This document shows positions 3,349 through 44,353 of a DNA stretch of 64,000 nt, piece after piece. The stretch covers positions 29,896,184-29,960,183 of the forward strand of contig CAIIXF020000012.1 of NCBI GenBank assembly GCA_903813345.2, read 5' to 3'. Source of the DNA: Owenia fusiformis (lineage: Eukaryota; Annelida; Polychaeta; Sabellida; Oweniidae). The position numbers and the translations under genes are program-made. The notes below the pieces were generated by a model. That model was not told where the DNA came from. It saw nothing but the letters and a program-made list of their open reading frames with translations, and searched no databases. Position 1 is the first letter of the stretch, and every line of letters starts with the position of its first letter.

Positions 3349-4782
3349 TTAGATAATACGATAGATCTTCATTGATGCCTCTTTAAATGAGTAATAATTG
3401 TTGTCTGGAGTACCAATAACAGAGCCCCAATCTTTCCACGTAACACATGAAGCATACCGAGGACAAACTGGTCCTTTTTGGTAGATGCCAAATAGAGCCA
3501 CGACACTACAGTTGGTATACCACCATGCACCTTTGCGATGTATAGCACAATTTACAGTTTCGTGTGAGTCATTGTCATTGTCATGTGTAGAGAACTGTTG
3601 GCCATTATGCGGTGTGAGGCTGTCCCCCATAGTCCCAGTAAAACCTCCAATGGTCAGACGATATTTGTCAGATCTGTCAATTTGAAAGATCGAATACTCG
3701 GCAAACTTTGCTTCACTTGATGGACCTGGCCACATTGCGAGGTCAATCCGAACTTTATAGTTCCCCTGTGTCAATACACTTGCGAGGTTATCAAGTCCGA
3801 TAAAATGTTCCCTTGCTGTATACCCAAAGCCATGCTGATATTCAGTCCATGAACGATAGAAGTCTTCCGTGCCGTCAAATCGTTTGAATATATACATCCA
3901 TCCCTGGTCGCAATAGGCACTGAATATTCGGCCCTCTTTTGTTTTTATGTTTCTTACACCAGTGAATGATGGATCAGAATTACAGTCTTCAACATATCTA
4001 TCTGCAATTAAAACGACATTTACATCATTTACACATTGTTTCACTTATTACAGTAATGATGAAGAATGTCATGTCATGTCATAAATTGAATTAATAAATA
4101 AAATGAATTAATGTTGAGCATTTTGAAGGGCGGTATTTCGCATCAGTTGGTGTATTTGAAGACAGACCGGAAATATTATAACCCCTTCTGACGCGTGCGT
4201 ATAAACATCATGGTAATTTTTGCTCTAGAACTTTATTATATCCAAATCAGAGGTGAAATAGGACATGGTGACCAACCTATGCAACGATTACCATCTGATT
4301 TGGGAATTACTTTTCCAATTTTGATGGGATCTTCGTGTACTGTGGTATTTAAAGTTCAGTTATACACTTTGCATAATTAGAGCATTAATTAGAGCGATCA
4401 CATTTTCTGTCTTGATTAATTCTATTTGTGTCTTCCAAAGTTCAAAACAGAAATTCGAAAGAATTGGAAATTGGTTGCAAATATTATTATAATATTATGG
4501 ACTTTTCACTTCAGATTGATTTTAAATTCGTTAAAATTTGTTCCTCTATATTCATTCAGCAATCAGTTTTAAGGGACAATATAAAAAACAATTGAATGGA
4601 ATGCAGAAAAGAATTTAAACAAAAGTCTACTCACCACTATGAATATGTCCATTGTTTGTACATTCATCCAAACTATCTTCAATTGTTTCCTTTATTTCAT
4701 TCTTCACCTCTGCAAGGCAAATGTCCACCTCACTATGTGCTCTAACAGCAAAAGCAAGAGAAATCAGAATTGTGAACTTCAT
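3349..4782 (-). CDS. Secreted fibrinogen-related-domain protein A (two exons)
   Basis: Exon 1 is 4635-4782 and exon 2 is 3349-4001 (801 coding bp, 266 aa). The exon 1 donor is GTGAGT at 4634-4629, the acceptor is TTTTAATTGCAG ending at 4002, and the intron is phase 1. The start MKFTILIS opens a signal peptide (residues 1 to about 17); an earlier in-frame Met lies upstream of the TATA-like box and adds only basic sequence. Residues 24-40 are an acidic amphipathic stalk between Cys22 and Cys41. The FReD runs from Cys56 to the C-terminus: YCDQGW (79-84), RFDGTEDFYRSW, DNDND Ca2+ site (190-194), NCA, GAWWY (207-211), Cys214. The usual GGGW is shortened, and a Cys229/Cys235 pair encloses RYAS. By family it should be a Ca2+-dependent secreted recognition lectin; the ligand is unknown. 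Intron and promoter match genes B and C. Confidence 0.88.
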
Positions 4783-4840
4783 TTTCAGAATTGTTCGATC
4801 AGTATAAACCCGTGAACGTTGAATTCTGGCTTTGACTGTT

Positions 4841-4848
4841 ATTTTATG
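4841..4848 (-). promoter_or_regulatory. TATA-like box of gene A
   Basis: CATAAAAT lies about 60 bp upstream of the chosen ATG. The aligned position is TATAAAAT in gene B and CATAAAAT in gene C, with near-identical flanks. This favours a short 5' UTR and the internal ATG over the upstream one. Confidence 0.4.
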
Positions 4849-4912
4849 CATCTTTAATCCAAGGCTATACAATTTCATTTTACAAATTGGAAAATACCTG
4901 GATTATGATGTA

Positions 4913-5752
4913 CACTCCCCTCCATAAGATTGGCAACCTTAGCTCCCCCATTGAACTACGCGTTTAAGCCTCTTTACCTTTGAATTTTTATCTTCTTAAC
5001 CTGCGATGAAAATACTTGATGGAAACGTAATTTGACTTTATTTCCAATACCTCCAAACTTTCTCAATTTTTCCTCAATTACAATAAGTCGGAAATCGATG
5101 ATTTTGATGAATTTTTTAAAATCGACATTCCCATGTTAACCAATTGGAAATGGTAGGTTTGCCGCAAGTCATATGACAGAATATCCATCCATCCGAGTCT
5201 TTGCAAAAAATACGAATTAGGCAGGCAATTGAATTTGCTAACTTTATTTAACAAAAAATTGATATGTTTCTTCAGGTTCAACAAAGTTACAGGACTTTAA
5301 AGTAAAAGTTGTTTTTCAAAAAACCTCTTCCATTGAAATAACACAGGAGGCGAAAAATGGTTTTCAAAAATGACTTTGAAGCGCCGTAACTTAAGTATTC
5401 ATATATAAACTAAACACTTGGTGTACAAAAAAGTTAGCCAATTAATTTTCGATATAAAAATATTTTTGCTGAATCTTTTATTGAAAAATTATACTGATTT
5501 CTGATTTGCCCCGAACCCTCCATTTCCCATTGGATTACATGGGAATGACGATTTTCAAAAATTCATCAAATTTATCATCAATTTTCGCCCTATTGTAAAT
5601 GAGGAAAGAAATTGAGAAAATTTGGAGGTATTCGAAATAAAGTTAATAAATTATTTCATCGCCGGTTAAGTAAATTAAAATTCAAACGTAAAGAGGCTTT
5701 AACACGTAGTTCAATGGGGGAGCTAATGTTGCCAAACTTATGGAGGGGAGTG
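4913..5752. mobile_element. Palindromic MITE upstream of gene A, TA target
   Basis: The inverted ends begin CACTCCCCTCCATAAG and are flanked by TA at 4911-4912 and 5753-5754. The arms extend inward for most of the element: the minus-strand GAACTACG block and the fragment with GGAGGTATTCGAAATAAAG recur inverted. Gene B keeps the empty site at 15732-15733, with one TA between the same flanks. A TA target and no coding capacity suggest a Tc1/mariner-dependent MITE. A copy lies at the matching position upstream of gene C. Confidence 0.75.
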
Positions 5753-5754
5753 TA

Positions 5755-8418: not shown

Positions 8419-9907
8419 ATGTTCTCGAACTGTCAAGAAACATATCACAATGGACAAGATTTTATCAAAATTTAGATAGTACGATATATCTTCATAGATG
8501 CCTCTTTGAATGAATAATGATTGTTGTTTGGAGTACCAATAACAGAGCCCCAAACACTCCACGTTACACATGAACCATACTGAGGGCAAACTCGTCCTTT
8601 TGGGTAGATGCCAAATAGAGTCACGCCACAACTGGTATACCACCATGGACCTTTGCGAGATATAGCACAAATTTCAGTTTTATGCGAGTCATTATCAGAG
8701 TCATGGGTAGTGAACCGTCTACCATTATACCATTTCATGCTGTCGTTCATAGAACCACGAAAACCGCCAATGGTCAGACGATATTTTAGTGCTACGGCCA
8801 AGGCGATTTGTGTCCAAAAACACCTAGATTCAATTTGACTTTAGATTCTTGAAGGGGACCCCAAGGCAAGTAAAAAAAAGTTTGTGAACCCTTGCAAAGC
8901 AGGCTCAAAAGTGCTGAGTCAGCAAATTTTATCATTTTCGAGTCGGAGTTTGACCATATGCTTGAAACTATTTAATATCTCATTTCAGGATGTTGCAATT
9001 GTAATGAAACATTGTAAGTATATCAATAAGGCATGTATGAAGAATTCCTGAAAGTTTGGGTCTTATCCAACAGAATCTGGTAGAGATATGGGATAATTTG
9101 TCCCTAAAAGTGCATAATTTCTTCTCAAAATTTCTTAATCAGTCGATAGTTAATCAGTCATTTAAAAAACAGTAAGAGCCTATGGTGTATAAAACCTGAT
9201 TAAAAACTTCACTGATGATGCTAGCAAATATTGCTTGCATAAGTTTCAATAAAAAGTGCATGCATCTATTTTTCTGATTTTTCTCTTAACCTTTCCCTAA
9301 AAATTCAAGAAAGGGGGCGTGGCACCTTACACTTCAGTTGTTGAACTTTTTGCTAGGGTCAAATAGAAAATATGGATCATTATAGCAAAAAGTGTTATTC
9401 TAAATAAATCTTAACACAATATGTGACATCATAATATGCTAAACATATTCATTATCTATCATTTTATATTTTTACAGCTTATCATTGCCATAAACCATAA
9501 AACCATTAAGGGCATGTGTGGTCAGCAATTGGAAATACATGTATGTGTACTAATAACATTTTTCAAAACTGTATTTCGGGTGCCATTCTTTCCAAATGTT
9601 GTTCATGTAGTTATAGTTTATGTTTATGAATGATAGCACTTCCCATCATAGGTTTGGCAACTCAAACCCCTTTGAATCACTTATTAAAGTCTGTTTATTT
9701 TTGGCATATGAAATCGAAGTATCTGAAATATGGTAATAAGGAACATCATCAAGTTTTAAACATTGACAGACTTTGATATCCTATCATTTAATAACTTCCA
9801 GTTGCCAAATTTATGGAGGGGGTGTACATGCTTTATAGTATAGGGTCCATGTAAACATGTAAACTGCAACGGGACTCCTATTGTTGCTGCAAATAATTAG
9901 CTATATA

Positions 9908-10865
9908 CAGAGTGTCTCAAAAAAATGTTACACTCACAAAAAGTTCAATATCTTTCATAATTTTGACTTTTCCCTAAAATATACTTTGGATACCAAGAGA
10001 CAAATCTTTCTCGAATAATTTGACACCATCAAATTCAAAATCTGTCATTGATTGGCTCCACATGACAGCTTTTAGTGTCCCATGGTAAAATCTGACTTGC
10101 GCCAACTTCTAAGTGATTGGATTGACCAAATGACAAAAGAAGAACAGTTTCCTTAATATTTAACTTTCTTCTGAGTATAAGCTTGACCTTAAACTGAGTC
10201 ATTATGTAATTTTCCTATTTGTATTACATATGATCATTGGGTATATAAGACATAAACATGTGGTCCCCTCAACATGTTCTCCAAATTAAACTTGAGGTAC
10301 CCTTGCCCATGCGCACATGAATTGTAATATCACTCTGATTCTATCAATTATGCAGAAGTTCATTTAGGTCAGTTTGTAATGCTGTAAACTGCTTTCAGAG
10401 GCCCTTAAAAAACTCAAAGGTGTAAAGTGGGATGACCCTGGGAGCCAATACATTGGGTAATTCAATGCTATCTTCTAATTTCCAAAGAGTTCTACCAAAC
10501 AATCTGCCACAGGCCTTTGCACCATCCTGTTTCCATCATAACACAATTGAAATCTTGTATTTCTATCCAGGAAAGAAACAACTGGATCATTGATCATATC
10601 AAGATATCACTGTCCACAGCATTCACACCAAAAAAGAATTGATCACCACATGTCCAGCCACTGAGAGGTTGGCGCAAATCAGATTTCACATGCGTCTATA
10701 AAATCTGTCCTGTGCAGCCAATCTTGGACAGATTTTGAATCTGATGGTGTGAATTTATTTGAGAAAGACTGGTCTTATGGTATCTAAGTATATTTTAGGG
10801 GAAAAGTCAAAATCATGAAAGATATTGAACTTTTTGTAAGTGTAACATTTTTTTGAGACACACTG
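9908..10865. mobile_element. Tc1/mariner-type relic nested in the gene B insertion
   Basis: Inverted ends (CAGAGTGTCTCAAAAAAATG and the near complement ending TTGAGACACACTG) are flanked by TA at 9906-9907 and 10866-10867. The arms extend to about 130 bp with the TTCAATATCTTTCAT block. The interior of roughly 700 bp has lost any long reading frame. The same family leaves a one-sided fragment ending at 63312. Confidence 0.72.
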
Positions 10866-11689
10866 TAATAACAAATTGTAACACTACAAATGATTAAGAG
10901 CCAGAGTTTCTCAGAGCCTGGTTGCAGTTTGCACACTTTGTATTGTATATATGTCATAAATTGTTTAGTTGTAGTCTGTAGAACATAACAAGATGTGTAT
11001 GTTTTGTTTATATCAAAATAATACATCTTGTCCATAGGCTTAGCCAGGGGGTGCAATGGGATCGCACCCCCCCCCCCATGACCAATAAAAATATAACCAT
11101 GAGATAGAAGAAGAGTTTTAAAATGCTTTTTATTTTAAGCTTCTAGCCCTTTTTTGAAGGAAGTTGAATCAAGATTTGTAAAATTCAAGATAGATCTTAA
11201 TTTTTAGCCTTTTTTATGCCACAGTAGCATCCCCCTGACTGAAAACCGAAAATGTTTTGGCGATCAAACCCCCACTGAACCAAAGCTGGCTTCACCCCTA
11301 TTGTCCCTAAGGAATTGGAGATAATGTTTCACTGCTAGACTAGCACCCGATACTTCACATAGTATCAAGGGAATTGATTGTACTTTGTACATAAAATAAT
11401 TGTATCCCTAGCTGTAGACAGAAGAGTTAAGAAACCCCAGCAAAGTCATCACCTCCATAGTAAGCATTTAATGGAGCTTATTAGCATCTTCGACTTCCAT
11501 GTTATTATACAGTTGGAGCAATTGAAACCTTGAAAATCAAGATGGCTAATTATCAAAATTTCAATCTTAAATGGGTTCTCATTTGCTTCTACCACCTTGA
11601 TTATGCTTTGTACAGATGACTCATTATTCCTGGAGCAGCATGATCGACAGTAAGTGTTACACGGAATAATGGCATACATTCATGGTTGC

Positions 11690-12260
11690 GCAGTATTTGT
11701 GATATGGGTGAATATGCCATACTCACCTGCAGTGTATGGCATATTCTGCTGGTGGGTATGCAATATTCCGCAGTGAATATGCGATACATTGATTTCAGTG
11801 AATACCCCATACTCACCTGCGGAATATGTCATACTCACTTGCGGAAAGTGCCATATACTGCAGTCCAAAACGTGATACAGAAAGCCTTGATTTGATTGGT
11901 TGCGAGAATCGACTCTAAATGAAAAACTACGCTGGATTACCAATATAGTTAGTGCGTCTAGTACTAATGTATCAATCCTGGATTGATTGAGTAAGTTTAT
12001 TGCACAAGATTGGTGACTGATACTTCTGCTAAGTTAATATATTTGATACACAGTGCTGTTGATTCAGTAATCATTATAATAATTTATAATGTTTAACTTG
12101 TTTGTTCAATCTAAGCAATTGACAATTGCGTAATTCCATATCACATTCTCATTTGTTACTGTGTATGCCATATACCGCAGGTGAATCTGTCATACACCGC
12201 AAGTGAATATGCCATATTCATTGCGGAATATGACATATTTTTGTATCGTGATTACCGCAT
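11690..12260. repeat. Two clusters of short imperfect repeats (GAATATGCCATA / TGCGG)
   Basis: Two clusters, about 11700-11870 and 12160-12250, repeat short units built from GTGAATATGCCATA and ACCTGCGG or ACTGCAG-like pieces in both orientations, with spacing near 20-25 bp. They lie in the centre of the 5.65-kb element. The units are too irregular and variable to be a CRISPR array or a simple minisatellite. Confidence 0.4.
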
Positions 12261-12739
12261 AACAGTAAATTCCAGTTTTTGTTCCCTGCTAACTGTTATA
12301 GTACGTAATAAGCTACTGACTGATAATATCTTGGGATCAACCAATCCACACTCAGTTATTAAGCATTACTTACGTTTTGTCACTCCCATTGACTTTTGGG
12401 ATCTGTTTATCCAAGACTCATACGTTTTCATGGAAACCCCTTCATAATAAACCTATTCACCCGAGTTAAAGACATTCAATCCAAGGCCAAGTGACCATGG
12501 AATGGCTTATCCCTGAGGATCCTATGGATTCTGTTGTAACATGTGGTCATGAATTGAATGCAGGAGAAAAAGTTTATTTGAAGATAATATGAATGGCACT
12601 GGCCCGCTCAGTTCGTGTAAAACTAAAATAGCTTTAGCAGACAAGTGAAATCGGTCCAAATAATCACGCTCTTACAAAGTTTTGACAACTTTTCCTTTTT
12701 AACGATTTGATGAATGTAAACAAAGGAAGTTATTTCGCT

Positions 12740-13230
12740 AAAGCCTAACATACACCAATACGGCATGGTGGGACCTCCATTGATTTAACATTGGGTGGGA
12801 CCTCCATTGATTTAACATTGGGTGGGACCTCATGTAAATCTGTTGGACTTCATTGAGCTTTGCCCGATGGAACTCCTTCGGATTCCTTGGGATTTACCCC
12901 ATGAAGCCCCATTGAGTCCCATAAGATTCGATTGGGTATCATTTGGCGAAGTCCCACTGAGAATGGACCTATTCATTCTTTCCATTGGGCATCATGGGAT
13001 TTTTGATCATGGGATGTGTCAGCTAACTTGGGATCAAAATGACCTTGACAAAACCTTTTGAACTAAATTACATCATTTCTGTGAGACTCGATGGGATATG
13101 GAGGGACTCGATGAGACTCCATGGGGCAAAGTTAACAAGGTCTCTTGGGACATTGTGGGACTCGATATGGCATAGTGGGACTTGATGGGGCGAGTGGAAT
13201 TCTGCACCATTGGAATATGTTGGCCTTAGG
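12740..13230. repeat. Palindrome-like repeat rich in TGGGACT and GATGGGG
   Basis: This locally GC-richer stretch contains many variants of TGGGACT and CCATTGA. It begins with two tandem copies of a 31-bp unit (TGGGTGGGACCTCCATTGAT...) at about 12770-12830. Loosely inverted ends (CTAACATACACCAAT and CATTGGAATATGTTGGCC) suggest a degraded MITE inside the larger element. An ORF across it is produced by the repeat. Confidence 0.4.
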
Positions 13231-15687
13231 ACCAAACTCGCGTAATGTCACATATCATATAAGTAATGTCAACAAACCCAGTGCCACGGAATTGATCACT
13301 GTCTTTGAGAGAATGTAAGGCACTATTATTTCCTTTGGCTTCAGGTTTCTACACCTAAACAATTTATGACACATATAATATTTATACACCCCTCTATAAG
13401 GGTGGCAACTGCAAGTTTTCATATGATTACATATTAAGGTCTGTCAATGTTTGAACCTTGTTCCTTATTGCTTTATTCCAAAAGCTTGATGTCTTGTTTA
13501 AAATTGCCAAACAGCATGACAAGCTTTAATAAGTGATTCAAAGGGGGACTTACAGTTACAAAACTTATGATGGGGAGTGTAATATAACATATTATCATCA
13601 TAATTCATTCTTAACATACCATAACTACATGAACAACATTAGGATAGAATGGCATCTGAAATACAATTTTGAAAAATGTTTTAAGTACACATACATGTAT
13701 TACCTATTGCTGACCACACATACCCTAAACGGTTTTATGGGGTATGGCAATGATAAGCTGTAAAAATATAAAATGGTAGATAATGAATATGTTTAGCATA
13801 TTATGATGTCACATATAGTGTTAAGATCTATTTAGAAAAACACTTTTTGCTATAATGATACACATTTTCTATTTGACCCTAGCAACAAGTTCAACAACTG
13901 AAGTGTTATGTGCCACGCCCGCCCCCTTTCTTGCAAGAGAAAAATCAGAAAAAAATAAATACTTGTACTTTTTATTGAAACTAATTCCAGAAATATTTTG
14001 CTAACATCATCAGTGAAGTTTTAAATCAGGTTTTATACACCATAGGCCCTTACTGTTTTTTTAAACGACTGATTAACTATCGACTGATTAAGAAATTTTG
14101 AGAAGAAATTATGTACTTTTAGGGACAAATTATCCAATATCTCTACCAAATTTTGTTGGATAAGACCCAAACTTTCAGGAATTCTTCATACATGCCTTAT
14201 TGATATACTAACAATGTTTCAATACAATTGCAACACCCTGAAATGAGATATTAAATAGTTTCAAGCATATGGTCAAACTCCTACTCGAAAATGATAAGAT
14301 TTGCTGACTCAGCACTTTTGAGCCTGCTTTGCAAGGGTTCACAAACTTTTTTTACATGCCTTGGGGTCCCCTACAAGAATCTAAAGTCAAATTGAATCTA
14401 GGTGTTTTGGACACAAATCGCCTTGGCCGTAGCACTATTTGTCAGATCTGTCAATTTGAAAAATCGAATACTCGGCAAACTTTGCTTCACTTGATGGCCC
14501 TGGCCACATTGCGAGGTCGACCCAAACTTTATAGTTCCCCTGCATCAATACACTTGCGACGTTATCAAGTCCGATAAAATGTTCTTTTCCTGCATACCCG
14601 AAGCCATGTTGATATTCGGCCCATGTACGATAGAAATCTTCCGTGCCGTCGAATCGCTTGAAAATATACATCCATCCCTGGTCGCAATAGGCACTGAATA
14701 TTCGGCCCTCTTTTGTTTTTATGTTTCTTACACCAGTGAAGGATGGATCAGAATTACAGTCCCTGACATATCTATCTGCAATTAAAACGACATTTACATC
14801 ATTTACACATTGCTTCGCTTATTACAGTAATGATAAAGAATGTATTTATGAATTAAACCAATTAATGTTGAGCATTTTGAAGGGCGGTATTTAGGATCAA
14901 TTGGTGTATTTTGAATGTATTTATGAATTATAAACCAATCAATTATGAGCATTTTGAAGGGCGGTATTTCGCATTAATTGGTGTATTTGAAGACAGACCG
15001 GAAATATTATAACCCGTTCTGGTGTGTGCGTGTAAACATGGCAATTCACATTAATTTTTGCTCTATTCTAATCAAAGGTGAAATAGGACATAGTGATCAA
15101 CCTGCAACGATTACCATCTGATTTGGGAATTACTTTTCCAATTTTGATGGGATCTTCGTGTACTGTGGTATTTAAGGTTCAGTTATACACTTTGCATAAT
15201 TAGAGCGTTAATTAGAGAGTTAGGGCGATCACATTTTCTGTCTTGATTAATTCTATTTGTGTCTTGGAAAGTCCAAAACAGAAATTCGAAAGAATTGGAA
15301 ATTGGTTGCAAATATTATTATAATATTATTCAGATTGACTTAAACTAGAACTTCACTTCCGGAATCCCATTTGTTCGTTAAAATCTATTCCTCTATATTC
15401 ATACAGCACTCAGTTTTAAGGGACAATATAAAAAACAACTGAATGGAATGCAGAAAAGAAATTAAACAAAAGTCTACTCACCACTATGACCATGTCCATT
15501 GTTTGAACATTCATCAAAACTATCTTCAATAGTTTCCTTTATTTCATTCTTCACCTCTGCAAGGCAAATGTCCACCTCACTATGTGCTCTAACAGCAACA
15601 CCAAGGGCAATGAAAAGTGTGAACTTCATTTTCAGAGTTGTTAGATCAGTATAAACCTGTGTTAGTTGAGTTCAGGCTTTTACTGTC

Positions 15688-32140: not shown

Positions 32141-32216
32141 GCTCCTTGTGTTTATTCATTTACAGTGCATGGATTTTATTTCACAAAACTATTTCAAAAT
32201 TAGCTATGTTAATTCA

Positions 32217-32222
32217 TTTATT
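32217..32222 (-). terminator. Candidate poly(A) signal of gene D
   Basis: AATAAA on the minus strand 50 bp past the stop codon, aligned with that of gene A. Confidence 0.5.
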
Positions 32223-32271
32223 CCCTCGAATGTCAAGAAACATATCACAATTGACCAGATGTTTTCAAAAT

Positions 32272-35200
32272 TTAGATAATACGATATATCTTCATTGATG
32301 CCTCTTTGAATGAGTAATAATTGTTGTCTGGAGTACCAATAACAGAGCCCCAGTGTTTCCACGTTACACATGAACCAAACTGGGGACAAACTGGTCCTTT
32401 TTGGTAGATGCCAAATAAAGCCACGACACCACAGTTGGTATACCACCATGCACCTTTGCGATGTATAGCACAATTTACAGTTTCGTGTGAGTCATTGTCA
32501 TTGTCATGTGTAGAGAACTGTTGGCCATTATGCGGTGTGAGGCTGTCCCCCATAGTCCCAGTAAAACCTCCAATGGTCAGACGATATTTGTCAGATCTGT
32601 CAATTTGAAAGATCGAACACTCGGCAAACTTTGCTTCACTTGATGGACCTGGCCACATTGCGAGATCGACCCGAACTTTGTAGCTGCCCTGCATCAATAC
32701 ACTTGCAAGGTTATCAAGTCCGATAAAATGTTCTTTTCCGGCATACCCAAAGCCATGCTGATATTCAGTCCATGAACGATTGAAGTCTTCCGTGCCGTCA
32801 AATCGTTTAAAGATATACATCCAGCCCTGGTCGCAATAGGCACTAAATATTCGGCCCTCTTTTGTTTTTATGTTTCTTACACCAGTGAATGATGGATCAG
32901 AATTACAGTCCTCAACATATCGATCTGCAATTAAAAAATACATTTAATTTTGGAATTTTTATGGAATCTGAATACACTACATGTAGTTTCTTTGAATGTT
33001 CTCAGACATCACATTATGTAAAAACAAACTAAACGTTCTGCATACACAGGGGTGTATTCAGTATTTTGTGTTAGGGGCGGGGGGCGTTTGATAATCACTG
33101 TGAGCGAAGCGTACCGCGTGAATGAGCGTAGCGAACGAGCATGAGAATAGGCGGGTCTTGGAGTTCTTCCCCTCAAAAAAATTCTAAAATTGAATATCAT
33201 TTGGTGCATTCTGACAAATTTCGGAGCGTAGGTCCAATTTCCGGGTTTGATTTCAGCATATATGCTTAATTGACAACCCATAGCCATCTATTTTGATTTC
33301 CAGTTAAGATTCTGACTTTTTAGAGGGGGGGGGGCTGCGCACCCGTCTCGATCCGCCAGTAATATACGCAGCATACTATGCCATTGGTAGTTCTATGGCT
33401 GGTCTTCTGATGGATGGGTCGTGCGAGGCGGCGCAATCGGGGAGCATGCCCCCAGAAAATTAGACCCTCTCTGGTGCATTCTGAACATATCTCAGAACAA
33501 CATTTCCAATAATTAAAAACAAGAAAAATTTTATGACTTTTATGAAAATATACATTTTGCACTTATTCTTCAAAGTATCTACATACTGTATGGGTTCCTG
33601 AGAAACTATACATGATACATGGTGAGAAAATAGAGGCTGACGGTTATCCGGTTATACGGTTTCGGTACGGAATTGAGCATTTACCGGTATTGAAATTATT
33701 AACCGGTTAACCGACGCTGATCCCCGGGGGAATAAAAGACACGTCGTTTTTTAACTATTTCGTTTAATTTCCACTTTCACGATGCGTACATTTACATAGA
33801 TATGTCCATGTTTGGCAGTTCAGGTGTGATGTCCATGTTTGGCAGTTCGGGTGTAGTAGCTTCATGCTCAGGCTCAGATTTTGTTGTAGTTTTGTTTGGC
33901 AGTTCCGGTGTAGTTGTAGTGTCAACGCCAGATCCAGAAACTGAATTATGTTTTTAATAGTCATTTACGAACAACAAGGCATTGACAACCTCAGGTTGAA
34001 GTCGTGTCCGTTTTTAAGTGATGGTGTTGCCAGCTGCACTGAACTGGCGTTCACTTGACACGGATGACGCGGGAATAGCATGATATGTTTCAGCCAAACT
34101 CGCCACATCAGGATGTTTTCCTCCGTTTACTTTCCAGAATTCAAGACAGTCAATAAAATCTATTTTACCTACCCCATCCCCAAGTATACTGCACGTCGCT
34201 TGCTATTGATACAGTTGAGAAATGCTTTGAAATGTTATTTAATTTAAAACTAAAAATACATCTTGATTCGTAAGATAGTTACATACTATTTCGTGAAGTT
34301 CATCAGTATGGGTTCAAATCGGTCTTGCAACATGTATGCATATAGACTTGAGAAGCTACGGAGAGAGTTAGGAACAAAGTGGGGGTGGCAGCGCATTGGC
34401 ATTTTATCTTACATATTTTTACCGGTATTTCTATGAGAAATGACATCTTCTATGCTTAATATAGACTAGATACTGACATAGTATCATTTCTGTCATCAAT
34501 ACACTTTCACTTTAATTAGCTCTAGAGCTTTTAATTCTAGGCTCGGTTTCAAATGTAAAAAAATTGGGGGAAGGGGAGGGGAAGGGGGCGGTCGGCCCCA
34601 ACCCCCCCCCCCCCTTCTGACGCCGATGTACATGTAATCAATGATTCCCGTTGATACCCTACGCTCCTTACATTCCTATATTGACTTCATAATATGCACT
34701 CTTAAATCTTTCCGTTTATGTTGTGAAAAACATTGCAAGCTTCACCTCTATTATCATAAAATTATGAACTCTCAGATGAGTGTATTATCCTTACTCGATT
34801 TTTTTTATCTCGTGGTATGAGGAAAGTAGTTCTTTTAGAAACCTGTTTTGGGACTTCAATGGTATACTACAGCATCAACTTTGGATAGAATGCTCTCATT
34901 TGCTGGCATATACTGCCCAGAATAACTGGGAAGCATGTGATAACAGTGAACGGTAAAATATTAGGGATTATTTTCTGCGGATGGATGACCTTGATAGTGC
35001 TGAATTGGTCAATGTACATAAATATGATGACGTTTTGGTACTCGTATTATGTAAGATAGCAGAACTTTTGATTTTCGTTGGATATTTTTGTTGAAATGTA
35101 AGATAGCTGCGATTTGAGAAATTCTAATTCGAACTTTGTCAATTTAACAGTCATCTCAATGGTACAAAAAGTAATGAAAATTCTACCGATTGACAACAAG

Positions 35201-35471
35201 ATGGTATGTCGATAAGTCGATACGGTATGTGTTGTTAAAATGTGCTATTTTGTAATTCTTCAACAGCAGGAGAGGAAGGAATACTAATTACAAAGATTTT
35301 AGCATCAGTATACTCACCAAAATGGAAATGTCGACCATTGTTTGAACATCCATCCAAACTATCTTCAATAGTTTCCTTTATTTCATTCTTCATCTCTGCA
35401 AGGAAAATGTCCTCCTCACTATGTGCTTTTACAGCAAAAACAAGAGCCATCAAAATGGTGAAATTCTTCAT
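32272..35471 (-). CDS. Secreted fibrinogen-related-domain protein D (two exons)
   Basis: Exon 1 is 35318-35471 and exon 2 is 32272-32924 (268 aa, phase-1 intron of 2.4 kb). The exon 1 donor is GTGAGT. The start MKNFTILMALVFAVKAHS opens a signal peptide; an open frame continues upstream, but alignment with genes A-C supports this Met. The stalk keeps the NEIKETIEDS helix but has Phe where A-C have the first Cys, leaving only Cys42. The FReD is nearly that of gene A: DNDND, GAWWYTNC, VVALFGIYQKGPVCP, loop QFGS. It has EDFNRSW instead of FYRSW and an unusual extra Cys (AECSIFQ) where others have Tyr. The intron carries an hAT relic, a GAGCGNAGCG-rich repeat near 33095-33160 and a G-rich tract. 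Confidence 0.87.
33631..34433 (-). mobile_element. hAT-superfamily relic in the intron of gene D
   Basis: The left end TAGAGGCTGACGGTTATCC and flanks TGAGAAAA (33623-33630) and TGAGAAAT (34434-34441) give an 8-bp hAT-type target duplication with one mismatch. Minus-strand translation at about 33955-34155 shows the hAT C-terminal dimerisation motif: LEFWKVNGGKHPDVASLA, IPASSVSSERQFSAAGN, then TRLQPEVVNALLFV. A TAA stop replaces an expected Lys before RTRLQP. The catalytic core is missing and the right terminal repeat is partly deleted compared with the unit 2 copy. Confidence 0.78.
34566..34590 (+). other. G-quadruplex-type tract in the intron of gene D
   Basis: Four G runs of 4-5 separated by 1-2 A, followed by a long C run that could pair with it. 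The template-strand context is transcribed as C-rich RNA, so any effect would be at DNA level. Confidence 0.4.
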
Positions 35472-36006
35472 TTTCAGAAATGTCAGATCCTGTAAAAGTG
35501 TCTGTTTAGCGCAGACTCTGACTGTTATTTTGAAACAAAGTTGCAATCGGTCTTTATTAGTCACTGACAATACTTTTACTGAGAAAACTTGGATATGTGC
35601 GTAGTTTTCAGAAAATACGTTCATAATAACATTTGGTTTATTTTGATTTATTGCTGTTCATGTATTATGATTGGTTGGTTATGAAATCAGTTGTCAGCAT
35701 TTTGCCAATTGGCATTGTAATTTGAACAACCGTACAATTCAAAATTAAACATAGCAATATGACAAAAACGAAAATTGATGGTGCTGTGGATTGAAATCTA
35801 ATATGTAACCAATAGGAAACAGGGAAGCTCGAGAAGGCGGGCCTTAAAGTTTTGACATGAATCGATGTGTGCTCTAAATGTGAAAGTGGGCAATCTTTGA
35901 TTAACGATGTAGTAAAATGAATGAATCGTAGCAAATGTGACCCATGCATTGTAGGGTCATAATTCAATCATGAAGTGTAGAGATGTACATTCCAAACCAG
36001 AAAGTA

Positions 36007-37039
36007 CAAGGGTTGTTCAAAAAGTTGTGCACACATATGTCTGATTGTGAGAATAATGGACAAATCTTGCTCACAGTTGGTATGTATGTGTCAATATCTT
36101 ATTCCCTTACACTGTCAAAGTTTCATGTATATATGCGCTTACTACTAAACATTTTACGGTTGCTATAGTAACCACGGTGATGACGCTATGGTCCATATAT
36201 CATTTTGTAAAAGATAACTAGTTACAAATAAAGATCAATGTTACTAAGCATGCTAAATTAACTTTCATAAACTGTCAATTTAAATTTAAACGTTCTCATG
36301 GAAAATGTGAATCTTATCTCAATATTTCCCATCTTGTTTTCTTTGGTTATGTCAAAGAATGACCGTAAACTTACTCTTCAACGATCTTGAACAAATCACC
36401 TGATTTTTTAAAGTTATCAAAGTTCTCATGAATTCAGGAAATATTGGAGAATATGGCTCGGCATAATAAAGTTGGAGCAGAAAACATTGATAGAATAATA
36501 CATGATAAAGAATGGGGAAACAGTATTACACAAGTTATATTCATTCATGATAAAGACATGTTGCATATGATGACTCCAATAAGGTTTGCTAAGTATTCCA
36601 AGATAGAATAAGAGAAGGGAAATACATTGAGGGTAGCTGTAGTTATGAGAGGGTTTGACATCCTATAGGTAGAATGGTTCAGACATTTGCTTATGGACTG
36701 GACGTAGTGCTGCAAGTATAATGCATTACTGAAAAGGTAAATATAAATTAGTTATAATATAACCTGATTAACAGCTGAAAGAGCGAAGATTGATGGAATC
36801 ATTTCAGTATACAAAAGCATTCACAAAATCAATTCAATCTAATTACGTCATATGTACCATGGGGCCATTGGTTCAAATTTTGAAGTCAATGTATCCCAGG
36901 AAGTGTATTGCTTATAGTCCTGAAATTTCATATAAGCTTGTAAGAAGGATAATACTATATCTGTATGAAATTTCACATAAAAATAATAAAATGTCTTCTC
37001 TTGTGAAGCTGTCGTGCAAGACTTTTCGAACGACCCTTG
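36007..37039. mobile_element. Mariner-like relic, TA target, unit 1
   Basis: Ends CAAGGGTTGTTCAAAAAGT and CTTTTCGAACGACCCTTG are flanked by TA at 36005-36006 and 37040-37041. The interior keeps short open frames but no transposase motif I can name. The unit 2 copy is split by the 6.1-kb insertion. Confidence 0.6.
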
Positions 37040-37041
37040 TA

Positions 37042-38267
37042 TTGTGTCCATCAAAATCCATTTGGATCCTACTCACCCCTACATCTTATCTAAATATGTT
37101 ACGAAATAATAAAAATACAGAATAATAGTATAATCTTTGGTTTTAAAAAGTTGAATATGATATTTGATAAGTTTAAAAGTTGTTTTTGTAGCATTTTTTC
37201 TATAGCCATTTTGTAGGGACACAATTATGAAAAATGTACAATCTTTTAATTTTAAGATCTAATAGCAAAGGTATTGCCAAAATAAATATATAACGAAAAA
37301 ATAGATATGTGTTTAAAATATTGGTATTAACTTAAGATAAAAATTGTCACTATCACTTTCAACAAACATAGGGTCACGTGACATGACGCGGGGCAGTCAA
37401 TTTTGATCTATCGTAGACCATATCACCATCAAATTGCCAATATTTCAACCTCGTCTTGCGAGGCCATTTTAATTTGAAACATCTTGAATTTGGTGTCAAA
37501 ATAAAGCTGGTCACGCCCACTTTCTATAGTTATCAATACCCCAATTTACACTACGCGCAGCATTCCAAGACGTTTTGGTTAAAACGTTTTAGAAAAATAA
37601 AGTTGAATTTACATTACCATTTTCAAGACGTCTTAGGAAATAAGATCGAGTTTACACCTGTTTTCCTAAAACGTCTTAGAGATATGTAGGTATACCTGTA
37701 AAATGAAAAAAGCAGTTCAGTACTGGTTGAAGGACGGTTCAGTCAATATAGCTATTCTTTTCCTGCTTCTATACTTTGTACCCAACTTTGTACTAAAGAA
37801 TGCATCGGTTTCAGAAATATATGTCCTAAAGACAACATCGTTAAAAGCATGAAAGAGAGCAGGAAGTTTTAATGCATAAATTAGGATTATGATAAATTGC
37901 CAGGCAAATAAGTTCTTCTCAATAATTTTGGGATGATATTGGGAACAAGGGATAAGACAAAATAAAGGACCATGCGACATTATAGTGTTGTAACAACAAA
38001 AAATGGGATCACGATTGCAACATTTTGTCAGATGGCTAGTATATGCAAGTATTTGCAAGTTCGTTGCAAAGCGCTAAAACACAGAATGCAATAAACTCCT
38101 ACTATAATTTTTAAGAGAATGGGAAAGAAAACAGATATTCAGAGAAAGCGGATGACATCATACTTTTTAAACGCAAAATGCAATAAAAGGATGGGTGACT
38201 ATACAGATGTATCAAAATGATATACTGCAGACAAATCAAGAGAGAACATATGACTGGAACAATCAAA
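37042..38267. other. Non-coding stretch of unit 1
   Basis: A run near 37555-37680 contains repeated AAGACGT/ACGTTTT/ACGTCTTAG blocks in both orientations, likely another small palindromic repeat. ORFs here have identical copies at 52417-53019 only because of the duplication, and none shows a recognisable family. Confidence 0.4.
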
Positions 38268-38269
38268 TA

Positions 38270-39345
38270 CAGGGCGTTCAGTAAGTAAAGCTAATTTTGC
38301 TCTCAAACTTTCATTTCTTGTCTATCATCGTTCGAATTTTCAGTGGAGAAGCATCAGACACTTTTCTAACTATCCTGAAAAAATGATCAAGATATAATAA
38401 ATAACAGCAAAATGGTGGTTGTCATAGTAACGCGAATACGGGTTCTGCGGAGCAATTTTATAAGTTCACAGCATAGTAGATTTTGTTAACATTAGTTTCT
38501 GTCCTGTCTATATTTCAACCATAGTTCTGTGGCTACTCCATATTTCTGCTTTCAAGTTAGCATTCTATTTCATGTTCAAAGTAATTCCCCTTAGCTTCCA
38601 CACATAGCTGATGTCGTTCTATCCACTTCTGATATATCCTGTGGAAGCCATCTGGAAAGTTCTTTGTCAGCAAACGTTGATCGGCATTCTGAAGCTCATG
38701 GATATTTGCGTGGATCTTACCACGCAGATCATTTTTCAAACATGAAAATACCCCTTTTGGAATTTCTGATACCATTTGTAGATTGTGTATTTAGGCACAC
38801 TGTCCCCATATGCTTTTTGGATATCCCTTATGGTATCCTGCTTGGATTTCCCTAGCAACACATTGTATCTGATGCTACTTCTCAATTGTTGTTTCATTTC
38901 ATTGTTCATTTTGCTTCCATTGGCAATCCTGGCAGCCATGATTTTGATGATGTCATGGAGCAGTATCTGATGGATCATTCTGGATCATTCAATCTGTTGT
39001 ATCATCTGTCTGTGATGTCATAGACTACTGTTGCCATGGTATCATATTTGTGTATGTTGTTGTTGTTTGTCGTGACTTTCAGCCATAGCAAACAAAGACA
39101 TATGCAGCATTAATCTTAATCAATTCATTGCATTATAACATTTTTATTAAAGTAAGAAATTGCTCCGCAGAACCCGTATTCACGTTACTATGACAACCGT
39201 TGTTTTGCTATTATTCATCATATCTTATTTAATTTTTCAGGGTAGTTAGAAAAATGTCAAATGCTTCTTCACTGAAAATTTGAAAGATAAGTGACAAAAA
39301 ATAAAAGTTTGAGAGCAAAATTAGCTTTACTTACTGAACGCCCTG
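38270..39345 (-). mobile_element. Internally deleted Tc1/mariner-type element, unit 1
   Basis: Long inverted ends begin CAGGGCGTTCAGTAAGTAAA and are flanked by TA on both sides. Arms extend about 200 bp and include CCGCAGAACCCGTATTC. The minus strand carries transposase remnants, listed separately. Confidence 0.8.
38557..38978 (-). pseudogene. Transposase ends fused without the catalytic core
   Basis: Frame 38736-38978 encodes an N-terminal helix-turn-helix typical of mariner-type transposases (LGKSKQDTIRDIQKAYGDSV, then TIYKWYQKFQKG). Overlapping frame 38557-38775 encodes a mariner C-terminus (HELQNADQRLLTKNF, RIYQKWIERHQLCVEAKGNY). The DDE/D catalytic middle is absent, so an internal deletion joined the two ends with a frameshift. 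The copy at 53502-53923 has the same structure with few differences. Confidence 0.72.
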
Positions 39346-40689
39346 TATATCACCTTTCATTTATCTTGACATTTATTGATGTCAAAATCATAATAAGACA
39401 TGACATCATATGGACAAGAAGGAATATGAGATGTTAGTAAGTTGTGTTAGAATATAAGATCCAAACAGGTGTAACCACGCTCTTATAGTCTTCCCCACAG
39501 TCTTTAACTATTTACAGTGTATGTTTACAAAATATGACAATCGTTATAGGCTGAAAATGGTAGAATTGCTGCAGAATAATTTTCACGCCATTTTGACCCG
39601 CGAAATCTGTAGATAACAATGAAAGTGCGCCCCTTACTTGAAATTAATGTTTTTGGGTTTCTACAACAGCAATGGATATAGGAGATGGATGGCAAACAGT
39701 GGTTTGAAATCTGATTAACATAAATTCAAGAAAGAATAAATGGGGCAACATAAGGAGTTGTAATAGATCTAATGTTATCTTTATGTGAGATATGTACCCC
39801 TCCCACCATTGTTCAAGTTGTAAAAAGTGGAGGAAGAATGCCCTTGTGATTTTATCTCACACATATATATATTTATGACTTTAAAAAGTGTTTTTGTTGT
39901 CAATTTCTAGCTTTTTAAAATTTCAGCCTAAAACACAGCAGTCCCTTGCTTGGATAAATCTACAAAAAGTACAACCCCATAATAAAGCATAGACCAGTAA
40001 TGAATTAATAGTGTAATACATACTTGAGAGCCCTTTAGAGATAATGACTAACCCATACTCCAAAAACAATGTATACATTAATTGTTATCTGATTTATTTT
40101 AAGGTAAAGAACTGGCCGAGGGTTTTCAACAGAATGTTAATGTTAATAGAATTAATCTTTTATTCAAACTTCTTTTAACGATTCCATAGGGCTGGTTTAA
40201 CAAGTTGTTCCTTAATTTTACGAAACTTAAAAAGCAAAAAAGGATGGCAATGAATTGAAGCAGAATTTAACAACAAACAAACCATCAAAATTTCATCCTC
40301 ATTATATGTATATGACCAGTTTTGTATATAATACAAAATGTCCTTAGAATGCAATTGTAAACTAAATCACTGAAACATTTAATCCTAGAAGCCATGGGGG
40401 AATGCAGAAAGCAATTTTGGTATGGCTGTTACCAAGCAAAATAAACAACAACTACAATTTCCCAGTTAGGTCCCTAGTTTCGTGTTCTGTTTGGGATTAC
40501 ATCATATTTTGATGACATTGACCAGGACATTTTGTCATGTGTAAACTTTATTTTGAAGTGTCGAGATTTCATTCGTGATCAATCCTGCATTTGCCTCACC
40601 AGTTTCAACTAATGCATTTCTGTTCCAATGCACATACCATATTGGAAGGAATGCAATTACAAGAATATTAAAACACTAACTTCGTTGAT
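39346..40689. other. Non-coding stretch at the left end of unit 1
   Basis: AT-rich DNA matching 54293-55590 of unit 2. It contains short (AT)n and no gene that I can support. Confidence 0.45.
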
Positions 40690-40695
40690 TTTATT
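40690..40695 (-). terminator. Candidate poly(A) signal of gene E
   Basis: AATAAA on the minus strand 73 bp past the gene E stop. It lies in unit 1 DNA, so E uses a 3' end supplied by the neighbouring repeat unit. Confidence 0.45.
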
Positions 40696-40767
40696 AACAC
40701 TCTATTTTCTTAGAAGAATTAAAGAACGTGGTCATAATTCATTAGTGACAAGGTTTAATAAATAAAT

Positions 40768-43700
40768 TTAGATAATACGATATATCTTCATGGAAGCCTC
40801 TTTGAAGGAGTAGTTATGATTGTCTGGAGTACTGATGGTAGATCCCCAATCCCACCATGTTATGCATTTGGCACGTTGAGGACAAACAGGTCCCTTCGCA
40901 TAGACGCTAAGTAGATTAGATGCATAGCAACGATAATACCACCAAGCACCTTTGTGAGCTAAAGCACAATTTGCAGTTTCATGTGAGTCATTGTCATTGT
41001 CATATGTAGAGAACCGCTGGCCATTACGCGGTGTGAGGCTGTCCCCCATAGTCCCAGAAAAACCTCCAATGGTCAGACGATATTTGTCAGATCTATCAAT
41101 TTGAAAGATCGAATACTCGGCAAACTTTGCTTCACTTGATTGACCTGGCCACATTGCGAGTTCGACCCGAACTTTATAATTTCCTTGCGTCAATACACTT
41201 GCGAGGTTATCAAGTCCGAAAAAATGTTCCTTTCCGGCATACCCAAAGCCATGTTGGTATTCAGTCCATGTACGATAGAAGTCTTCTGTGCCGTCAAATC
41301 GTTTGAAGATATACATCCAGCCCTGGTCGCAATAGGCACTGAATATTCGGCCCTCTTTTGTTTTTATGTTTCTTACACCAGTGAATGATGGATCAGAATT
41401 ACAGTCCTCAACATATCGATCTGCAATTAAAAAATACATTTAATTTTGGAATTTTTATTGAAACTGAATAAACTACATGTAGTTTCTTTGAATGTTCTCA
41501 GACATCACATTATGTAAAAACAAACTAAATGTTCTGCATACACAGGGGTGTATTCAGTATTTTGTGTTAGGGGCGTTTGATAATCACTGTGAGCGAAGCG
41601 TATCGCGTGAATGAGCGTAGCGAATGAGCGCGAGAATAGGCGGGTCTTGGAGTTCTTCCCCCCCAATTTTTTTTTCTAAAATTGAACATCATTTGGTGCA
41701 TTCTGACAAATTTCGGAGCGTACATGTAGGTCCAATTTCCGGGTTTGATTTCAGCATATATGCTTTATTGACAACCCATAACCATCTATTTTGATTTCCA
41801 GTTAAAATTTTGAGTTTTTAGGTGGCGGAGGGGGGGGGGGACTTGCGCACCCGTCTCGATCCGCCAGTGATATACGACATTTATATGAATAAATGTATCT
41901 GGACTACACTCCAGCATATACGATGCCATTGGTATTTCTATGGCTGGTGCTCTTCTGATACAAATTTGAAACAAGCTCGTTTCGTAAGATGTTTGGAGGT
42001 AAAACATGTACACATACATCATTTTCTTCAAAAAGAGTGCATCGAAATCACAATTACCAGCATGGTATTAAAATTTAATACCATGCTGGTAATTGTGATT
42101 TCGATAATTAAATAGACATGAGTATAATCTAGGGGCGTCAGAAGGATTTGCCAAGGGAGGGGACGACTTTTTGGTATGGATGGGTCGTGCGAGGCGGCGC
42201 AATCTAGGGGGATCGGGGAGCATGCCCCCCAGAAAATTAGACCCTCTCTTGTGCATTCTGAACATATCTCAGAACAACATTTCCAATAATTAAAAACAAG
42301 AAAAATTGTTTTTCTAGAAAACTGAACTTGACTAAAAAACTGACTTTTATGAAAATATACATTTTGCACTTATTCTTCAAAGTATCTACATACTGTATGG
42401 GTTCCTGAGAAAATATACATGGTATAGAATTAAATTAAATGTGAGAAAATAGAGGCTGACGGTTATCCGGTTATACGGTTTCGGTACGGAATTGAGCATT
42501 TACCGGTTGAAATTATTAACCGGTTAACCGACGCTGATCCCCGGGGGAATAAAAGACACATCGTTTTTTTACTATTTCGTTTAATTTCCGCTTTCACGAT
42601 GCGTACATTTACATAGACATTTAGATGTCCATGTTTGGCAGTTCAGGTGTGATGTCCATATTTGGCAGTTCGGGTGTAGTAGCTTCATGCTCAGGCTCAG
42701 ATTTTGTTGTAGTTGTGTTTGGCAGTTCCGGTGTAGTTGTAGTGTCAACGTCAGATCCAGAAACTGAATTATGTTTGTTATAGTTATATACGAACAACAA
42801 GGTATTGACAACCTCAGGTTGAAGTCGTGTCCGTTTTTAAGTGATGGTGTTGCCAGCTGCACTGAACTGGCGTTCACTTGACACGGATGACGCGGGAATA
42901 GCATGATATGTTTCAGCCAAACTCGCCACATCAGGATGTTTTCCTCCGTTTACTTTCCAGAATTCAAGACAGTCAACAAAATCTATTTTACCTACCCCAT
43001 CCCCAAGTATACTGCACGTCGCTTGCTATTGATACAGTTGAGAAATGGTTTAATTTAAAACTAAAAATACATCTTGATTCGTAAGATAGTTACATAGTAT
43101 ATCGTGAAGTTCATCAGTAGGGGTTCAAATCGGTCTTGCACCATGTATGCATATAGACTTGAGAAGCTACGGAGAGAGTTAGGAACAAAGTGGGGGTGGC
43201 AGTGCATTGGCATTTTATCTTATATATTTTTACCGGTATTTCGGTAACGGTACGGTTATTAGCGTGACGGTTACCGGTACTGGTTTTCAGTACCGTTGCA
43301 ACCTCTATGAGAAATGACATCTTCTGTGCTTAATATAGACTAGATACTGACATAGTATCATGTCTGTCATCAATACACTTTCACTTTAATTAGCTCTAGA
43401 GCTTTTAATTCTAGGCTCGGTTTCAAATGTAAAAAAATTGGGGGAAGGGGAGGGGGAGGGGGCGGTCGGCCCCAACCCCCTCCCCCTTCTGACGCCGATG
43501 TACATGTAATCAATGATTCCCGTTGATACCCTACGCGCCTCACATTCCTATATTGACTTCATAATATACTCCCTTAAATCTTTCCGTTTACGTTGTGAAA
43601 AACATTGCCAGCGTCACCTCTCTAGCCTCTCTATTATCATAATATTATGAACTCTCAGATGAGTGTATTATCCTTACTCGGTTTTTTTATCTCGTGGTAT

Positions 43701-44353
43701 GAGGAAAGTAGTTCTTTTAGAAACCTGTTTGGGGACTTCAATGGTATACTACAGCACCAACTTTGGATAGAATGCTCTCATTTGCTGGCATATACTGCCC
43801 AGAATAACTGGGAAGCATGTGATAACAGTGAACGGTAAAATATTAGGGATTATTTTCTGCGGATGGATGACCTTGATAGTGCTGAATTGGTCAATGTACA
43901 TAAATATGATGACGTTTTGGTACTCGTATTATGTAAGATAGCAGAACTTTTGATTTTCGTTGGATATTTTTGTTGAAATGTAAGATAGCTGCGATTTGAG
44001 AAATTCTAATTCGAACTTTGTCAATTTAACAGTCATCTCAATGGTACAAAAAGTAATGAAAATTATACCGATTGACAACAAGATGGTATGTCGATAAGTC
44101 GATACGGTATGTGTTGTTAAAATGTGCTATTTTGTAATTCTTCAACAGCAGGAGAGGAAGGAATACTAATTACAAAGATTTTAGCATCAGTATACTCACC
44201 AAAATGGAAATGTCGACCATTGTTTGAACATCCATCCAAACTATCTTCAATAGTTTCCTTTATTTCATTCTTCATCTCTGCAAGGAAAATGTCCTCCTCA
44301 CTATGTGCTTTTACAGCAAAAACAAGAGCCATCAAAATGGTGAAATTCTTCAT
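40768..44353 (-). CDS. Secreted fibrinogen-related-domain protein E (two exons)
   Basis: Exon 1 is 44200-44353 and exon 2 is 40768-41420 (268 aa, phase-1 intron of 2.8 kb). Exon 1 is the same as in gene D, including loss of the first stalk Cys. The N-terminal half of the FReD is the common version (YCDQGWMYIFKR; HFFGLDN instead of HFIGLDN). The C-terminal half departs from D and resembles C: LAHKGAWWYYRC, ASNLLSVYAK, loop QRAK, ITWWDWGSTIS. DNDND and WWY are intact, so Ca2+ binding is expected. The stop codon abuts the tandem-duplication junction, and the 3' flank resembles that of gene C. By family it is a secreted Ca2+-dependent recognition protein. Confidence 0.88.
42041..42105. repeat. 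Perfect 65-bp palindrome in the intron of gene E
   Basis: Two 32-bp arms with no mismatch surround one central A: left arm 42041-42072 (starts ATCGAAATCACAATTACC), right arm 42074-42105. Gene D lacks it at the matching intron position. Confidence 0.9.
42450..43307 (-). mobile_element. hAT-superfamily relic in the intron of gene E
   Basis: Copy of the relic in gene D, with both ends: TAGAGGCTGACGG at left and CCGTTGCAACCTCTA at right, flanked by TGAGAAAA and TGAGAAAT. Minus-strand translation near 42780-42974 shows the hAT dimerisation domain with the same TAA stop before RTRLQP, so that mutation precedes the duplication. Confidence 0.8.
43440..43463 (+). other. G-quadruplex-type tract in the intron of gene E
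   Basis: Counterpart of 34566-34590 with slightly different run lengths. The four-run structure is kept despite length changes. Confidence 0.4.

Follow-up and report, generated by a model that had tools for sequence, protein, structure and literature searches.

Five neighbouring FReD lectin genes of Owenia fusiformis are recombinant hybrids of fronts and backs

We analysed a 64,000-nucleotide stretch of the Owenia fusiformis genome (assembly GCA_903813345.2, contig CAIIXF020000012.1, positions 29,896,184 to 29,960,183 of the forward strand; hereafter the window), which carries five neighbouring two-exon FReD lectin genes (A to E, all on the minus strand), and found these genes to be recombinant hybrids of fronts and backs. 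The front is the backbone of promoter, exon 1 and intron, and the back is the 3' half of exon 2 with the 3' flank that goes with it. A and B have an A/B/C front with an A/B/D back, C an A/B/C front with a C/E back, D a D/E front with an A/B/D back, and E a D/E front with a C/E back; the two backbones and the two 3' halves occur in all four possible combinations, as in a four-gamete test applied to gene halves. According to approximately unbiased (AU) tests, a breakpoint search and the pairwise homoplasy index (PHI), the array is a recombinant (mosaic) multigene family, in which front and back have conflicting histories that meet in a breakpoint zone within exon 2. A and D share a one-sided 3' flank, and a unit of D and E was recently duplicated. 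D is the clearest case, with an E-type front and an A-type back plus 3.2 kb of flank.

The array runs from the stop codon of A (3349) to the start codon of E (44353), and the window contains no N. The PF00147 (Fibrinogen_C) profile scores 146-156 bits in A, C, D and E, and 64 and 60 bits in the two halves of B (curated cut-off: 22). Coding exon 1 is 148 or 154 bp long depending on the gene, with the donor GTGAGTA and an N-terminus that by eye resembles a signal peptide. Exon 2 starts after a GCAG acceptor, codes for the entire FReD and measures 653 bp in A, C, D and E, which yield open proteins of 266 or 268 residues; the gene products are probably secreted, FReD-only lectins. The coding parts (all minus strand) are:

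3349-4001, minus: exon 2 of A (653 bp, FReD), from PF00147 and alignment; predicted A/B/D-type binding block at 3349-3526
4635-4782, minus: coding exon 1 of A, signal-peptide-like N-terminus by eye, donor GTGAGTA
8472-8786, minus: 3' half of B exon 2, an open reading frame one codon shorter, from alignment
14437-14775, minus: 5' half of B exon 2, an open reading frame
15482-15629, minus: coding exon 1 of B
22587-23239, minus: exon 2 of C, from PF00147, alignment and change points; predicted C/E-type binding block at 22587-22764
23850-23997, minus: coding exon 1 of C
32272-32924, minus: exon 2 of D, A-like from about 32660 downwards; predicted A/B/D-type binding block at 32272-32449
35318-35471, minus: coding exon 1 of D, 148 of 148 aligned bp the same as in E
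40768-41420, minus: exon 2 of E, from PF00147, alignment and change points; predicted C/E-type binding block at 40768-40945
44200-44353, minus: coding exon 1 of E

Conflicting histories and breakpoints

AU tests were run over all 15 trees of the five genes, with the 3' half of exon 2 taken from position 310. For exon 1, 12 of the 15 trees are rejected and the three that are kept all have D+E, in agreement with an earlier note on this DNA, which had grouped the fronts as A/B/C versus D/E; for the 3' half of exon 2, 12 trees are rejected as well and the three kept all have C+E. The two sets of kept trees do not overlap, so the conflict exceeds chance. The first half of exon 2 rejects four of the 15. 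A fit of our own under HKY+G gives the same best groupings as IQ-TREE for exon 1, the 5' half and the 3' half, and the PHI test gives P = 0.0005 (the floor of 2000 shuffles). Over 148 aligned bp of exon 1, D and E have no differences, A and C 4, A and B 12, B and C 11, and the A/B/C genes differ from D/E at 17-19 positions. When the window was compared with itself (BLAST, E up to 1e-20, matches of at least 150 bp), A/B/C were joined to D/E only at exon 2 and over 199-244 aligned positions around exon 1, the remaining intron and upstream sequence being unmatched.

At exon-2 positions 300-653, A and D are 96.6% identical, A-B and B-D 84.9%, C-E 84.4%, and the other six pairs 73.7-81.0%. Most of the C-terminal motifs listed in the earlier note follow these types: ALFGIYQKG is found in A and D and TLFGIYPKG in B (one codon short), VTW..WGSVIGTP in A, B and D, SNLFSNY or SNLLSVY together with GSTI in C and E, and the 3' flanks of C and E read TTTGATAAATAA / TTTAATAAATAA beside the stop codon. 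KGPVCP had been taken as specific to C and E, which does not hold (it is also in A and D, and B reads KGRVCP). The 5' half of exon 2, described as nearly uniform, is so for the protein, and the DNA identity over positions 0-300 is 91-95% in all ten pairs, but not at synonymous sites, where the divergence (dS) is 0.18-0.40 across all pairs; this half looks uniform because of protein conservation, and not because of recent homogenisation alone. Between types, dS is 0.49-0.70 in the 3' half and 0.87-1.41 at positions 440-620, and with dS so unequal between regions, parts of one gene differ in age. With only third positions of the 3' half, the three C+E trees are kept and the 12 others rejected (p-AU 0.0070-0.0089; 0.0072-0.0076 for the three with D+E), so protein convergence does not account for the grouping. 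Triplet tests on exon 2 alone (up to 60 ordered triplets; uncorrected) include D from E and A (P = 0.00065) and A from C and D (P = 0.0016) among the 24 lowest P values.

To locate breakpoints in exon 1 plus exon 2, we used a GARD-like procedure of our own with IQ-TREE (neither GARD nor RDP itself), with 355 intervals and up to six segments. The single-tree model has a log-likelihood (lnL) of -2339.0 and a corrected Akaike information criterion (AICc) of 4700.3, and the two-segment model has an lnL of -2223.7 and an AICc of 4486.4 (a gain of 115 lnL units); one tree for both halves, which the earlier note had named as the finding that would speak against it, was not borne out, the two-segment AICc being lower and the trees on either side conflicting. 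The best single break is at exon-2 position 350 (about codon 166), inside the range of codons 165-175 near the GGFxGTMGD segment where it had been foreseen; lnL stays within 2.3 units at grid points 350, 375 and 400, with position 400 worse by 0.2 units. The Bayesian information criterion (BIC) chooses four segments (exon 1, and exon-2 positions 0-350, 350-475 and 475-653). The conflict is strongest at positions 475-653, where each of the 12 trees that lack C+E is rejected (p-AU at most 2.6e-5), and the clean type block begins only near position 475.

Pairwise change points fall in the same part of exon 2. The divergence between A and C rises from 5.7 to 30.8% at 3600 (exon-2 position ~401), between D and E from 4.4 to 33.3% at 32467 (~457), and between C and E from 5.7 to 19.9% at 22856 (~383), and between A and D it drops from 8.1 to 2.0% at 3738 (~263). 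A and D have 22 differences up to position 306 of exon 2, none at 307-493 (187 bp), and then 11, nine of which lie within 494-571 (9 of 78 positions); their clustering points to an additional short tract in one of the two genes. Runs of at least 20 bp that are identical in all five genes are found at 35-78, 80-99, 280-305 and 326-354, the last one adjoining the best breakpoint, and such runs are plausible pairing sites. Synonymous differences in the first half of exon 2 exceed the divergence of the neighbouring intron in both D-E (11/62 versus 79/2369, P = 1e-5) and A-C (11/63 versus 38/603, P = 0.004), so this half, too, has been exchanged relative to the intron, in addition to the break in mid-exon. 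B has a private stretch at 8721-8756 (GSMNDSMKWYNG) where the other four genes read GTMGDSLTPxNG, and a donor outside the window is possible for it.

Flanks, array history and the origin of the mosaic

Four features outside the exons bear on how the array was formed:

101-3348, minus: 3' flank of A, with 52 of 3244 aligned bases (1.6%) different from the D flank at 29005-32271; goes with the A/D 3' half
29005-32271, minus: 3' flank of D, A-type, from BLAST and alignment
34876-36495, minus: upstream region, exon 1 and first part of the intron of D, nearly identical to E
36555-40766, no strand assigned: segment X1 between D and E, with its duplicate X2 at 51516-55656; homology stops at the E stop codon

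A and D share a 3' flank of 3.2 kb, and their introns have no BLAST match to each other, so the A/D exchange looks one-sided. The shared 3' flank is about 115 bp for A-B and about 50 bp for C-E, and the grouping of the flanks follows that of the 3' halves. At the front, D and E differ at 5 of 1178 positions over the upstream region and exon 1 (1 of 625 over 34876-35500), rising to 4.4% toward exon 2. The introns of A and C differ by 6.3% (B-C 6.8%, A-B 11.8%), and the upstream regions of A and C by 4.6%. X1 and X2 differ at 40 of 4112 aligned bases (96% identity when gaps are counted). Each belongs to a tandem unit, X1 (36555-40766) to that of D and X2 (51516-55656) to that of E; the D/E unit is a recent tandem duplication. 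Arranged by divergence from young to old, the order would be the D/E unit, the back flank of A/D, the A/C backbone, the C/E back half, and the split between the two half types.

At 55612-55656, X2 retains a C/E-type 3' end up to the position of the stop codon and then breaks off. Searching 55657-64000 by tblastn with the FReDs of the window gave only matches with E > 1, which makes it probable that a sixth gene has been lost or displaced. A 6.1-kb segment between E and X2 (45380-51515) is absent between D and X1, and contains a 476-bp tandem pair (50222-51174) and an inverted pair (47670-48044 and 48303-48673).

We consider it very probable that this is a germline tandem array of FReD lectin genes exchanging sequence by ectopic homologous recombination, by which fronts are re-paired with backs. 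The conserved first part of exon 2, with identical runs up to 44 bp in the five genes, would let differing copies pair, and the exchange would be resolved between exon-2 positions ~260 and 460, so that a backbone of promoter, exon 1 and intron is joined to the C-terminal half of another copy (with its predicted pocket) and to the 3' flank of that copy. The main route would be unequal crossing-over in the tandem array, accompanied by smaller gene-conversion tracts, and the exchanges would have occurred in the germline.

Several observations weigh against this reading or complicate it. The earlier note had proposed breakpoints inside exon 2; the mid-exon break was found, but one clean swap is too simple and several breaks are needed, given the four segments of BIC and an AICc that is still dropping at six segments, the largest number tried. 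Positions 310-475 leave the tree unresolved (the best has B+C, barely ahead of C+E), and the order of the backbones within A/B/C is mixed. The synonymous differences between A and D in the 3' half (6/72) exceed those of the flank (52/3244, P = 0.0014), so A and D are not one undisturbed shared block. The divergence of D and E also shifts within the intron (from 0.2 to 4.4% at 34875), a position that is likely another exchange point. For C and E, crossing-over and conversion are indistinguishable because the shared flank is only about 50 bp. In all of the triplets with the eight lowest P values, B is one of the parents (both orders occur), an effect of its private stretch; the triplets that match the proposed mosaics are weaker than these. 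The evidence is from five genes in one window of one genome sequence, without an outgroup or a second haplotype, and the pocket is assigned by alignment, not structure.

Some of these points would also fit short two-sided gene conversion tracts in exon 2 instead of crossing-over, with the mosaic as the sum of many small tracts, an explanation that we think has a real chance of being right although the odds are against it. It would account for the four segments required by BIC in exon 1 plus exon 2, for the mixed site patterns of the 5' half (9 patterns at 10 informative sites), for the A-D differences at 494-571 after none in 307-493, which look like a small foreign tract, for the A-D synonymous rate above that of the flank (P = 0.0014), and for the drop in identity of B to the other four genes, from 88-94% before to 76-82% at positions 320-480. 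A short tract, however, fails to explain the A/D 3' half together with the full 3.2-kb flank, to the left of which there is no like-oriented match, and D and E make up a tandem unit (gene plus X segment, 0.4-1% divergent) that is a product of duplication.

It is doubtful that the 3' halves (A/B/D and C/E) are the true old lineages, with backbones that were replaced or duplicated more recently. The types of the 3' half do form the oldest split (dS up to 1.4) and the backbones are young (D-E 0.4%, A-C 4.6% upstream), but this would still be recombination within the gene, yielding identical chimeras, and the 3' flanks of A and D are a younger match (1.6%) next to unmatched introns and upstream regions, so that exchange moved the 3' side.

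We regard it as quite improbable that alleles or similar copies were misjoined into false chimeras during assembly. Some copies are 97-99% alike over kilobases, in the type of locus where assemblies fail, and the doubt falls most heavily on D, on which the tree conflict hinges; the accessible text of PMC5103432 states that the Sp185/333 locus of the sea urchin was once assembled as a hybrid of two clusters. However, the window is free of N, and the change points of the four tested pairs fall in one zone of exon 2 (though the pairs share sequences). C is near A in front (4.6-6.3%) and near E in back (84%, versus 77% to A), divergences that are too large for mixed alleles.

We give next to no credence to a single tree in which convergent selection on the binding site made the 3' halves alike within A/B/D and within C/E: dN/dS is indeed higher in the 3' half (0.28-0.51 in nine of ten pairs, 0.21 in A-D) than in the 5' half (0.09-0.19), but third positions alone reject 12 of 12 non-C+E trees (three with D+E included) and the 3' flank goes with the 3' half, so that we judged this candidate already refuted.

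Insertions and repeats

Two insertions lie in or near the genes:

8787-14436, no strand assigned: element in B exon 2 (5,650 bp), with terminal inverted repeats of ~1.05 kb, 86% identical, and a 3-4 bp target duplication
4911-5754, no strand assigned: palindromic element inserted at a TA upstream of exon 1 of A, also in C (24128-25006), with the empty site in B (15732-15733)

Both halves of B exon 2 that the first separates are open, and it is probable that B was recently inactivated by this insertion. By eye, no transposase was recognised in the 17 open reading frames of at least 60 residues that overlap it (a count that includes two B exon pieces), and no family search was run. A repeat of ~140 bp inside this element recurs at 63176-63317. 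The TA-site insertion common to A and C may serve as a marker of an A+C backbone, unless it was lost from B, and it is a possible promoter change in both genes.

Elsewhere in the window there is a tandem repeat (18429-19619) whose unit of ~145 bp also makes up an inverted block at a distance of 1 kb (16980-17477), and a 430-bp palindrome (57249-57674; self-complementary at 89%). Scans of the window for tRNAs and for Rfam families (at gathering score) were negative, and no relative was confirmed in viral and prokaryote collections.

The predicted binding half and comparison with known systems

The earlier note had stated that the predicted binding half is swapped between gene backbones. This is supported in that, when the genes are aligned with ficolin-2 and FIBCD1, the predicted pocket residues map to the part of exon 2 that is exchanged; with five sequences, the part that moved may be either the 3' half or the backbone. 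Homology extends over the FReD (A versus ficolin-2, E 9.2e-36; A versus FIBCD1, 1.6e-33; 3' half of C versus FIBCD1, 1.1e-19). The half after the breakpoint contains the Ca site, the pocket disulfide and the S1 pocket (A aligned to ficolin-2, C to FIBCD1); the clean type block, whose start at position 475 corresponds to residue 208 of A, includes the pocket from the residue-412 equivalent on, with the Ca site outside. Two features conserved in acetyl-binding FReD lectins of the ficolin/FIBCD1 type are present: the Asp-x-Asp of the Ca site and both pocket Cys were aligned to FIBCD1 in C and seen by eye in all five genes. Published accounts name Tyr405, Tyr431, Arg412, Asn413, Cys414 and His415 of FIBCD1 (PMC10825690) as well as the Ca residues and disulfide (PMC3908420).

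Pocket residues were placed by the ficolin-2 alignment in A, by FIBCD1 in C, and by their place in the corresponding loop in B, D and E; the pocket was mapped by alignment only because the predicted structures had a mean predicted local distance difference test score (pLDDT) of 35.4 (D alone) and 41.0 (A with C, D and E). The alignment does not recover the FIBCD1 S1 set of Tyr405, His415 and Tyr431, and the predicted pocket differs. The equivalent of 405 is Arg in A, B and D and His in C and E (alignment), those of 412-413 are Thr-Asn or Thr-Ser (A/B/D) versus Asn-Arg or Tyr-Arg (C/E), that of 415 is Ser or Gly (A/B/D) versus Phe or Tyr (C/E), and those of 431-432 are Tyr-Ala, Tyr-Gly and Phe-Gly in A, B and D, and Leu-Tyr and Arg-Ala in C and E. 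A loop bracketed by an extra Cys pair (VCPxxxxC), whose residues align with FIBCD1 Tyr431-Ala432, reads RYAS (A), QYGS (B), ELYN (C), QFGS (D) and QRAK (E). The S1 site of ficolin-2 is also altered (PMC10825690, accessible text), so another site could serve for binding in A to E. Judging from these residues, binding specificity would change along with the 3' half. More speculatively, and with the odds well against it, the array may be a two-part combinatorial receptor system, in which a few young regulatory backbones are paired by recombination, at a conserved seam in the FReD-coding exon, with much older alternative binding halves under selection, each with a Cys-clamped four-residue VCPxxxxC loop at the pocket; near-invariance of the seam would ensure that the reading frame and the ability to fold survive a swap.

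Among known systems, the FREPs of Biomphalaria are also multigene FReD proteins diversified by conversion and exon shuffling; the accessible text of PMC7588048, PMC10875847 and PMC12074976 names gene conversion, point mutation, duplication, gene loss and exon shuffling as sources of their diversity, and in what is accessible of one FREP2 study no recombination was seen (PMC2935394). FREPs differ in having one or two immunoglobulin superfamily (IgSF) domains in addition to the FReD (PMC7588048, same limit). No IgSF domain was found here, the profile scan of exon 2 having given PF00147 only (exon 1 itself was unscanned, and upstream exons remain possible); exon 1 codes for 49-51 residues, too short for an IgSF domain. 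With no IgSF found, we do not file the array genes as snail-type FREPs. In addition, FREP variants are described, in the text accessible to us, between cells of one snail, whereas the mosaic here is within one genome sequence.

Ficolins, FIBCD1 and tachylectin-5A are FReD lectins, alike in sequence over the FReD (ficolin-2 and FIBCD1 were aligned). They differ in that the equivalents of FIBCD1 Tyr405, Arg412 and His415 are changed in all five genes, and between the two types, and in that ficolin-2 and FIBCD1 have no extra Cys pair (VCPxxxxC) in the alignments made. The Sp185/333 (SpTrf) protein of the purple sea urchin is unrelated to FReD lectins. Its genes, as far as the accessible text of PMC5103432 describes them, are also small and two-exon, with the signal sequence in exon 1 and a mosaic second exon, in tandem segmental duplications that include one partial duplication without its gene; the mosaicism there consists of combinations of many elements, and here of alternative halves of one domain. 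The Sp185/333 genes are also bounded by GA/GAT repeats. In plant R-gene clusters (Cf-4/9 and others), exchange between tandem paralogues likewise leads to new recognition specificities (PMC1988830 and PMC5103432, accessible parts), although these are other proteins in another kingdom and the likeness is in process only.

Conversion and exon shuffling are thus already known from FREPs, and what would be new here is the split of one FReD between scaffold and binding half; we found no description of a half-FReD swap at a mid-exon breakpoint in the literature searched, which was mostly without subscription papers. How recognition proteins diversify in animals without antibodies is an open question, for which FREPs are a main example. 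Their mosaicism is told, in the accessible literature, as general gene conversion or exon shuffling, and in the Owenia array the site of exchange is located within the FReD. A single tree misleads when such mosaic genes are classified. With all four combinations of backbone and binding half side by side, it becomes directly testable whether ligands are shared by half or by backbone.

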